From: Candidatus Faecaligallichristensenella faecipullorum
GTDB taxonomy: Bacteria > Bacillota > Clostridia > Christensenellales > Aristaeellaceae
Reading direction: 5' to 3'
Length of the DNA stretch: 42,488 nt
NCBI GenBank assembly: GCA_018716505.1
Contig: DVJW01000139.1
Span: 1-42,488 of the forward strand
Shown: one piece after another, positions 318 to 42,488 of the stretch
How positions within the stretch are numbered: the stretch's first letter is position 1
Layout of the letters: each line of letters starts with the position of its first letter
The notes under the pieces: generated by a model
What the model was told of the DNA's origin: nothing
The model's input: only the letters and a program-made list of their open reading frames with translations
Databases searched by the model: none
Program-made: the position numbers and the translations under genes

Positions 318-395
318 TCAGCCCCCCGGGGTAAGCGAACATACGGGAACCTCCCCCTGGCCCCTCCATAAAAAAACCTCCCCGCCAGGGGATCA

Positions 396-418
396 GGGTG
401 TTGACTTTGTCAACACCC
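396..418 (-). repeat. Solo terminal hairpin of the ~223-bp stem-loop element family (copy E)
   Basis: GGGTGTTGACTTTGTCAACACCC is the same as the terminal palindrome of copies C and D, and lies 2 nt from a terminator hairpin. Confidence 0.6.
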
Positions 419-420
419 AG

Positions 421-454
421 AAAGCGCCATCCGTCAAAAAACGGATGGCGCTTT
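421..454 (-). terminator. Rho-independent-type terminator of the response regulator gene
   Basis: 14-bp perfect stem AAAGCGCCATCCGT-caaaaa-ACGGATGGCGCTTT just downstream of the stop codon at 469. Confidence 0.75.
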
Positions 455-4910: not shown

Positions 4911-6245
4911 ATGAAAACGCGTTTTACCCGTTTCATGGCGGCTGCTTTGGCCTTGACCTTGGTGTTGAGCCTGGGCGGAATGGCTTCCGTCGGCTCGGCC
5001 GAAGGCTCGACCGAAGGGGAAAAGACCAAGCTGGTGCTGGTGCAGTACCTGGGCAACGACCAGCGCGATCAGCTGATCCAGGAAATCGCGAGTCAGGTGC
5101 CGAATATTGAGCTGGAGATCATTTCTCCGCCCACCGAGACCGCGACCCAGAAGATCATGACCATGATGCAGGCCGGCGAGCAGATCGACCTGGTCGAGGT
5201 CGGCGCGGTGAATCAGGACTACATCAACAACGGTTTCATCATCCCGCTGGATAAGTATGTTGCCGAGTGGGACGAATGGGCGACCGTGAGCGAGAACCTG
5301 AAGGAACTGAGCAGCTCCCAGGACGATCAGACCTGGCTGATCCCCTACGGCGTGTATGAGCGCGCTCTGTTCTACCGCAAGGATTGGTTCGAAGAGGCCG
5401 GCCTCGAAGTGCCCACCACCTGGGACGAGCTGTATGAGACCGCCAAGCAGCTGACCGATCCCAGCCAGAACCGCTATGGCTATTCCTTCCGCGGCGGCTC
5501 GGGCACCGGCGGATTTGCCGAAATGACCATCCTGTCCTTCATTGATCCCTCTTTGGTGAGCATCGGCTGCATGCCCATGACCACCGACGGCAAGACCATG
5601 TTCGAGCAGGAAGGCGCCCTGGAGGCCGTTGAGTTCTACAAGAAGCTCTACACCGACTGCGCGCCCGCCGATTCCATCGGCTGGGGCTACAACGAGATGG
5701 TTGAGGCCTTCTATTCCGGTGTGACCGCCATGCTGATTCAGGACGCCGAGGTGATCGCGACCTGCGAACAGTACATGGAAGAGGGCACCTGGGCCACCGC
5801 GCCCCTGCCTGTCGGCCCCCACGACACCGTGGCCTTCCCGGGCGGATTCGCCGGCTGGTCCATTGGCTCCAATTCGGTGAACCCGGATCTGGCCTGGGAG
5901 CTCTTGAAGACCCTGTCCAGCGAGGAGAACAACACCTACTTCTGCAAGCAGAACGGCAATATCCCGATCCACACCACCGCGCAGGAAGATCCCTATTTCG
6001 CCGAAGGTCCGTACAGCTGCTACATCACCATGCATCAGCAGCCCGAGAAGTACATCGCCTTCATCGACTTCGGCAGCAACAACTTTGCGCCCTATGAGGA
6101 TCAGGAAAAGGCCAAGGTGTACGGCGACACCCTGCGTGACACCGGTATGCAGGAAGTGCTGATGGGCACCAAGGACGCCCAGACCTGGCTGGATGAGTGC
6201 GCGGCCGCCTATAGCCATATGGTAGGCGCCGACTGGATTAAGTAA
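4911..6245 (+). CDS. Extracellular solute-binding protein (family 1, carbohydrate ABC transporter)
   Basis: N-terminal signal peptide; YERALFYRKDWFEEAGLEVPTTWDELYETAKQLTD; RBS aggagg; followed by two permease genes. Confidence 0.93.
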   Translation: MKTRFTRFMAAALALTLVLSLGGMASVGSAEGSTEGEKTKLVLVQYLGNDQRDQLIQEIASQVPNIELEIISPPTETATQKIMTMMQAGEQIDLVEVGAVNQDYINNGFIIPLDKYVAEWDEWATVSENLKELSSSQDDQTWLIPYGVYERALFYRKDWFEEAGLEVPTTWDELYETAKQLTDPSQNRYGYSFRGGSGTGGFAEMTILSFIDPSLVSIGCMPMTTDGKTMFEQEGALEAVEFYKKLYTDCAPADSIGWGYNEMVEAFYSGVTAMLIQDAEVIATCEQYMEEGTWATAPLPVGPHDTVAFPGGFAGWSIGSNSVNPDLAWELLKTLSSEENNTYFCKQNGNIPIHTTAQEDPYFAEGPYSCYITMHQQPEKYIAFIDFGSNNFAPYEDQEKAKVYGDTLRDTGMQEVLMGTKDAQTWLDECAAAYSHMVGADWIK

Positions 6246-18871: not shown

Positions 18872-18897
18872 AGGGTCCGGGCGCAATTCCCGGACCC
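18872..18897 (+). terminator. Terminator hairpin, copy 1 (left flank of element A)
   Basis: AGGGTCCGGGCGCAATTCCCGGACCC, preceded by an A-tract; identical to 19121-19146. Confidence 0.75.
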
Positions 18898-19120
18898 AGC
18901 GTGTCGAAAAAGTCGACACGCTGTCAGGAAAATGAATACTTCATTTTCCTGAGTTGCATCATTTTCTTGCTGCCTTCGGCAGCGGCCAGAAAATGATAAA
19001 GGAAGCGGCCACCTGGGCCGCTCCTCGCGGCGTACACGCCGCCGCTGCGGATTGAATATGAAGGGGCCCCAGCCCCTTCATGCATCCCCAAGGAAATAAT
19101 TAAGGTTTTTTGACAGCCTG
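18898..19120 (+). mobile_element. ~223-bp stem-loop-array element, copy A
   Basis: Shares ordered hairpins with copies B (26735), C (37943, minus) and D (42252); flanked by 26-bp perfect direct repeats. Confidence 0.8.
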
Positions 19121-19146
19121 AGGGTCCGGGCGCAATTCCCGGACCC
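19121..19146 (+). terminator. Terminator hairpin, copy 2 (right flank of element A)
   Basis: Same 26 bp as 18872-18897, here followed by the T-tract TGATTTTT. Confidence 0.78.
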
Positions 19147-24952: not shown

Positions 24953-25027
24953 TGGTACCTCCAAGGGGACTCGAACCCCTGTTTTCGCCGTGAGAGGGCG
25001 ACGTCTTGACCGCTTGACCATGGAGGC
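24953..25027 (-). tRNA. tRNA-Glu(CTC), CCA encoded
   Basis: GCCTCCATGGTCAAGCGGTCAAGACGTCGCCCTCTCACGGCGAAAACAGGGGTTCGAGTCCCCTTGGAGGTACCA; anticodon loop CCTCTCA. Confidence 0.93.
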
Positions 25028-25032
25028 TTATA

Positions 25033-25106
25033 TGGCAGCGGAACTAGGATTCGAACCTAGACAATACGAGTCAGAGTCGTAGGTGCTGCCGTTACACCAT
25101 TCCGCT
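25033..25106 (-). tRNA. tRNA-Gln(CTG), CCA encoded
   Basis: AGCGGAATGGTGTAACGGCAGCACCTACGACTCTGACTCGTATTGTCTAGGTTCGAATCCTAGTTCCGCTGCCA. Confidence 0.93.
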
Positions 25107-26722: not shown

Positions 26723-26734
26723 ACGACTAGATTC

Positions 26735-26957
26735 AGCGTGTCGAAAAAGTCGACACGCTGTCAGAAAAATGAATGTTTCATTTTCCTGAGTTGCATCATT
26801 TTCCTGTCACCTTCGGTGACGGCCGGAAAATGATAGAGGAAGCGGCCACCTGGGCCGCTCCTCGCGGCGTACATGCCGCCGCTGCGGATTGAATATGAAG
26901 GGGCCGCGGCCCCTTCATGCATCCCCAGAGTACCAAACTGGGTTTTTTGACAGTCCG
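26735..26957 (+). mobile_element. ~223-bp stem-loop-array element, copy B
   Basis: Same ordered hairpins and length as copy A; ends AGCGTGTCGAAAAAG...GGTTTTTTGACAGTCCG. Confidence 0.78.
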
Positions 26958-26986
26958 AGCGATTAGATGATAAAGAGGTTTCTCAT

Positions 26987-37689: not shown

Positions 37690-37721
37690 GAGCCCTTTCT
37701 CCGCCCATCGGAGGAAGGGCT
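37690..37721 (+). terminator. Terminator hairpin, copy 1 (left flank of element C)
   Basis: GAGCCCTTTCTCCGCCCATCGGAGGAAGGGCT, no T-tract here; identical to 37944-37975. Confidence 0.75.
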
Positions 37722-37943
37722 CAGACCATTGACAAACCTATTTTTCCCGTTTGGGGATGCATGAAGGGGCCGCAGCCCCTTCATATTCAATCCGCAGCGG
37801 CGGCATGTACGCCGCGAGGAGCGGCCCAGGTGGCCGTTTCCTTTATCATTTTCCGGCCGTCACCGGAGGTGACAGGAAAATGATGCAACTCGAAAAAATG
37901 AAAAATTCATTTTTTCGAAGGGTGTTGACTTTGTCAACACCCT
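37722..37943 (-). mobile_element. ~222-bp stem-loop-array element, copy C (inverted)
   Basis: Reverse complement shares all hairpins with A and B; flanked by 32-bp perfect direct repeats. Confidence 0.8.
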
Positions 37944-37975
37944 GAGCCCTTTCTCCGCCCATCGGAGGAAGGGCT
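37944..37975 (+). terminator. Terminator hairpin, copy 2 (right flank of element C)
   Basis: Identical 32 bp, here running into the T-tract (GGGCTTTTGA). Confidence 0.78.
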
Positions 37976-42252: not shown

Positions 42253-42488
42253 GTGTGTTGACAAAGTCAACACCCTTCGAAAAAATGAATTTTTCATTTT
42301 TTCGAGTTGCATCATTTTCCTGTCGCCTTTGGCGACGGCCGGTCGGAGGCCGCGTTTACGCGGCTGGAGGTTCGAGGACGGCCCAAAGGGCCCCGCAGAA
42401 CCGGAACCCCAACCCGGCGAAGCCGCGGTTGGGGCGAGAAGGAAAATGATAGAGGAAGCGGCCACTTGGGCCGCTCCGACGGCGCGGC
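42252..42488 (+). mobile_element. Stem-loop-array element, copy D, with a 100-bp internal insertion and cut by the window end
   Basis: Shares the hairpin series with copy C up to GACGGCC and resumes at GGAAAATGATAGAGGAAGCGGCCAC. Confidence 0.75.

Follow-up and report, generated by a model that had tools for sequence, protein, structure and literature searches.

A high-copy miniature element of Clostridia with IS1182-type ends that lies between duplicated hairpins

The repeat family that recurs in a 42,488-nucleotide contig of Candidatus Faecaligallichristensenella faecipullorum is, with a probability that we put at about 0.9, a non-autonomous MITE that a DDE transposase of the IS1182 family mobilises in trans and that inserts at hairpins able to extrude from the DNA. 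The evidence observed directly consists of the ends of the element, its copy number, the hairpin duplications around it, a pair of filled and empty sites, and IS1182 elements of the autonomous kind that share these ends and leave the same type of duplication. Throughout, the window means that whole contig (C35), which belongs to a 2.93-Mb assembly (G000) of 236 contigs that is 84% complete.

The original prediction, made from the letters of the window, described three full copies (A, B and C) with common boundaries and a common order of hairpins, and both were seen in the window sequence (Table 1). Its further copies D and E are partial, the former being cut by the contig end and the latter a solo left end. 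No ORF explains the copies and their ends recur genome-wide, which bears out the proposed mobile, ORF-less family with fixed ends. The termini were also said to change jointly between subfamilies; this holds in the main, AGCGTGTCGAAAAA occurring mostly with TTTTTTGACAGTCTGA and GGGTGTTGACAAAG with GGTTTGTCAATGGTCTGA, but some copies are mixed. What the prediction lacked was the most telling feature, the duplication of the target hairpin. Copy A carries AGGGTCCGGGCGCAATTCCCGGACCC on either side and copy C carries GAGCCCTTTCTCCGCCCATCGGAGGAAGGGCT on either side. Copy B is without a hairpin duplication and has only an imperfect 9-nt repeat, CGA[C/T]TAGAT (26724-26732 and 26961-26969), and the left side of copy D is without a hairpin.

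Table 1. Copies of the MITE and adjoining hairpins in the window (P2 to P6, helices of the element; TIR, terminal inverted repeat).
Feature	Positions	Strand	Basis
Copy A, full 223-bp MITE	18898-19120	+	sequence, genome matches
Terminator hairpin duplicated around copy A, left copy, 26 nt	18872-18897	+	
Terminator hairpin duplicated around copy A, right copy, then TGATTTTTCT	19121-19146	+	
Copy A, left-terminal palindrome AGCGTGTCGAAAAAGTCGACACGCT (left TIR and inverted copy)	18898-18922	+	G052 IS1182 left end has the same layout
Copy A, hairpin 2 (P2), TCAGGAAAATGAA/TTCATTTTCCTGA	18924-18952	+	
Copy A, P3 stem ATCATTTTC/GAAAATGAT, with GCC bulge and inner hairpin	18958-18997	+	
Copy A, P4 hairpin GGAAGCGGCC/GGGCCGCTCC	19001-19024	+	
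Copy A, P5 hairpin CGCGGCGTACACGCCGCCG	19026-19045	+	
Copy A, P6, GGAT/ATCC around ATGAAGGGGC/GCCCCTTCAT, most conserved part	19049-19088	+	
Copy A, right TIR GGTTTTTTGACAGCCTG	19104-19120	+	
Copy B, full-length MITE, 223 bp	26735-26957	+	
Copy C, 222-bp MITE, TTGACAAA-ended subfamily	37722-37943	-	
Duplicated terminator hairpin of copy C, right-end side, 32 nt	37690-37721	-	
Duplicated terminator hairpin of copy C, left-end side, 32 nt	37944-37975	-	
Copy D, extended variant, extra hairpin module in P3, ended by contig end	42252-42488	+	
E, remnant: left-terminal palindrome alone, immediately following a terminator hairpin	395-420	-	
Terminator hairpin adjoining solo end E	421-454	-	

Pattern searches, exact and degenerate, put the number of left ends in the G000 assembly at about 95 and that of right ends at about 85. 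Among the left ends, 55 were exact matches to GTGTTGACAAAGTCAACAC and 25 to CGTGTCGAAAAAGTCGACACG; the reversed patterns used as controls returned 0 and at most 4 matches, and the counts are far above chance. A BLAST search with copy B gave 67 matches in the same assembly, the full-length ones reaching E = 3e-113. Since many of its contigs stop within copies, the MITE fragments the G000 assembly, and it may account for fragmented assemblies in these Clostridia. Of 151 related genomes, 30 also contain matches to copy B, among them members of other families within the order. In a relative assembled into three contigs (G026), most of about 40 copies examined were flanked by duplicated hairpins, and the same arrangement between hairpins was found in other genera. 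Named records bearing the core pattern were mainly Clostridia MAGs, including Candidatus Avichristensenella; a few matches in other phyla may be due to chance. A match on a viral contig (L359) was set aside as probable chance, the other parts of the element being absent from it. Searches of the window and of the large variants against Rfam, at gathering and at relaxed thresholds, gave no credible match to the elements, as had been expected; the only Rfam matches in the window were two adjacent tRNA genes (24956-25106, minus strand). Solo left-end palindromes without the rest of the element were seen at L052 (E), L104, L111 (3077-3105), L112, L265 and L266, several of them directly after terminator hairpins.

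Nearly all right ends and the majority of left ends adjoin a stem-loop, and complete copies carry on both sides an identical stem-loop that is specific to the locus and is mostly a Rho-independent terminator. When left and right flanks of 28 two-ended copies were compared, about 20 gave Smith-Waterman scores of 33-74, whereas none of 756 mismatched pairs scored above 27. Of the 52 paired-end copies of G000 and G026, 33 carried ungapped duplications, 16-39 nt long with a median of 27. In 30 of these 33, both feet of the predicted stem lay within 2 nt of the ends of the duplication, and in 28 of the 33 at least four T residues followed within the next 8 nt, as is expected of Rho-independent terminators. 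The remaining 19 of the 52 showed no ungapped duplication under this strict test; some of them have indels, nested neighbours or mis-paired ends. With regard to the A/T tracts, 11 of the 33 were T-richer after the right copy, 11 were A-richer before the left copy and 11 were ties. The MITE thus has no preferred orientation relative to transcription, which is the expectation for DNA transposition into a symmetric target.

One locus provides both states of a target. At L002, a copy has inserted into the hairpin GGCCGCGCTTTGCGCGGCT of another repeat, and when its flanks are joined with a single copy of the hairpin they align without gaps to about 20 uninterrupted copies of that repeat. Identity to these empty sites is 91% over 88 nt for L115 and 94-96% over 72 nt for L076, L098 and L141. 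The pair shows that the duplication arose on insertion and that a hairpin suffices as target, a terminator not being required.

The ends and the insertion behaviour place the family, which the original prediction could not match to a named repeat family, with the IS1182-family insertion sequences; the autonomous relative that the prediction had envisaged, sharing the termini and encoding a transposase, was found in related bacteria as elements of this family. Pattern searches for left and right ends in G026 uncovered, by way of a right end, a decayed IS1182 transposase gene bordered by MITE-type ends and hairpins, and a family scan recovered intact IS1182 transposases in other relatives. The G052 transposase matches NF033551 at 443 bits, above the cut-off of 270, and contains the Pfam domains DUF772 and DDE_Tnp_1_6. 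A hairpin immediately precedes its element, which opens with TCAGACCGTTGACAAACCTCGTCAACGGTCT, has the left-palindrome layout of the MITE and ends on the right in GGTTTGTCAATGGTC, of which 15 nt are identical to the right end of copy C. The left TIR of this element and the right TIR of copy C are identical at 18 of 19 positions. The match of the A/B-type ends is less close, at best 14 of 19 positions among the IS1182 ends compared, and the nearest in type is the TGTCAAAAAA-ended element of G024. The same ends were also found in G033, G080 and G424, and the left-palindrome layout again in the G033 element. G052 holds an intact IS1182 element together with a near-identical MITE left end. The family scan detected no IS1182 match in G000 itself, an assembly that is incomplete and breaks inside repeats, so that a multi-copy insertion sequence could be missing from it.

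The autonomous elements leave the same kind of target duplication as the MITE copies in nine of the ten IS1182 elements examined. Whole hairpins are duplicated around those of G024 (21 nt) and G157 (20 nt), and around seven named plasmid elements (18-25 nt) from Sphingobium, Salinivibrio, Vibrio, Klebsiella, Aminobacter, Rhizobium and Alkalihalophilus (ISBspe1). ISfinder lists direct repeats of 0-60 bp for IS1182. The tenth element, L418 on the Clostridium estertheticum plasmid NZ_CP086241.1, has complementary hairpin arms on either side without a clean whole-hairpin duplication, perhaps an IS1272-like outcome. The G052 element carries different hairpins on its two sides, which counts against the proposed explanation. 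Whole-hairpin duplication is the usual outcome for this clade.

We propose that the IS1182-family transposase would recognise terminal inverted repeats of the TCAGACCRTTGACAAACC or TCAGNCTGTCAAAAAA type and insert the MITE at inverted repeats capable of extrusion as stem-loops, the target being chosen by its structure. Targets would mostly be Rho-independent terminators and at times hairpins within other MITE copies. As the whole terminator is copied and the right-hand hairpin retains its T-run, termination of the gene should persist and insertion should do almost no harm; this would account for the large number of copies. Mobilisation in trans, the strand and cleavage chemistry, extrusion of the target and neutrality are the parts of this scheme that we infer.

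Some features of the family would also suit a SINE-like retroelement, in which reverse transcription of a structured RNA takes place at a nick next to the terminator and leaves duplications of variable length. Duplication length does vary, the interior is RNA-like with compensatory changes, and a left-truncated copy in G112 (L209) has a perfect 28-nt hairpin duplication with short microhomology at the point of truncation, a structure that is hard to explain by simple TIR transposition. However, the TIRs at the two ends recur in an element that encodes a DDE transposase, IS1182-family DNA elements yield the same duplications, and there is no orientation bias with respect to the T-tracts. Truncation moreover affects either end of the element, usually with loss of the hairpin on that side. 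We accordingly regard such an origin as very improbable. A reading without transposition, in which the family is a structured RNA of the ordinary kind or a repeat associated with terminators and has spread as terminators recombined with one another, draws on the position of copies at terminators and the conserved interior fold. It fits poorly with fixed ends, a locus-specific duplication at each site and unrelated flanks, is contradicted by the filled and empty sites at L002, and is the least credible of the explanations considered.

A different mobiliser was sought in an IS30-family element, whose intact transposase (NF033563, 283 bits) lies within hairpin 2 of several copies and in one case between two inverted left ends, the position that prompted its consideration. 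This element has ends of its own (...AAGTGCAACAG), without the terminal repeats of the MITE, and sits in hairpin-2 loops of differing sequence. We take it to be a passenger and rate its role as mobiliser even lower than the retroelement origin. The insertions in hairpin-2 loops, with a 328-aa transposase, are at L110 (431-1417, minus) and L111 (3161-4147, minus), on contigs C163 and C177 of G000; on C163 the element stands between the two inverted left ends as if it had inserted into a double-ended copy. The IS1202 family, which reportedly makes long duplications, was also considered, and no ends matched.

Apart from its IS1182-type ends, the MITE has an interior that folds. The helices P3-P6 are common to 19 copies from several genera, with 95.5% of cells paired, and 13 of the 42 pairs are changed on both sides within this alignment. 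The covariation score of P3-P6 was 0.218, against 0.086 for shuffled and at most 0.095 for slid versions, the slid control leaning in favour of the structure because the latter was taken from the same alignment. P2 varies in its letters but forms a hairpin in all of the sequences. The interior fold is kept across genera with compensatory changes, which is unusual for a MITE. Conserved unpaired letters, namely the GCC bulge in P3, CTGCGGATT and GCATCCC, suggest a possible role as RNA or in protein binding. It is conceivable, though we think it unlikely, that the transposon carries in its interior a structured RNA that is functional and is transcribed into the 3' ends of dozens of mRNAs; such transcription would follow because the copy lies between a hairpin without a T-run and an intact one. 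In that event, the IS1182 transposase would be distributing an RNA domain, ready for use in 3' UTRs, across these genomes. Extra hairpin modules take some copies past 400 nt. Certain modules, e.g. GAGGACAGCGC...GCGCTCCGCAG...CCGTACCC, recur at differing positions of the fold in two genera; they are found in the P3 and P4 loops of L078, L084, L250, L252 and L255 and, in the window, at 42343-42440 (copy D).

REP/BIME, RUP, Correia and ERIC are short intergenic palindromic repeats, whose ends are unlike those of the MITE; none of them is known to duplicate a whole target hairpin. The IS1182 family (NF033551) resembles the MITE in that named examples have CAGACTGCTGACAAAC-type TIRs next to a whole hairpin, 18-25 nt long, that is duplicated. 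The MITE differs in its lack of a transposase gene, its size of about 223 bp, its very high number of dispersed copies and its conserved multi-helix interior, not seen in the insertion sequences. Within that family, IS1272 and TnSha1 likewise target hairpins, mostly terminators, by structure and not by sequence (PMC5678879, PMC4923244). IS1272 replaces the stem-loop, removing the target in part or whole and leaving no duplication, and a duplication of the whole hairpin was drawn only as a hypothetical pathway b (Wan et al., PMC5678879); for TnSha1/IS1272 of Staphylococcus, hairpin targeting was likewise accompanied by deletion and no duplication (Furi et al., PMC4923244). In the MITE, by contrast, the stem-loop is not deleted and is present twice. 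The mechanisms of IS1182-type elements are little known, and outcomes with and without target duplication have been listed (2025, PMC12056078). MITEPye1 of Paracoccus yeei is also a MITE with IS1182-family TIRs that can fold into stem-loops; the excerpted part of its description differs in giving 4-bp direct repeats and 1-3 copies per chromosome, and reports no hairpin duplication (PMC11578231).

IS1182 MITEs and hairpin-targeting IS1182 elements are already known. Our literature search found neither a high-copy MITE of the IS1182 type whose fold is conserved nor a documented duplication of whole hairpins over many insertions; ISfinder curation may already list long repeats for this family. 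Target duplications of fixed size are the rule in most transposons; here the size tracks the secondary structure of the target. Tens of MITE insertions and nine IS1182 elements now support an outcome that was only hypothetical in the IS1272 work. With ends, targets and transposases well defined, structure-guided transposition is directly testable.

A second short family, with another interior and the same terminal repeats, was seen at L116 (about 1250-1520; G000 contig C79 near 5400-5669). It likewise lies between duplicated hairpins (AAGCGGTTCCGAAGC...), which suggests that several MITE families use one transposase.
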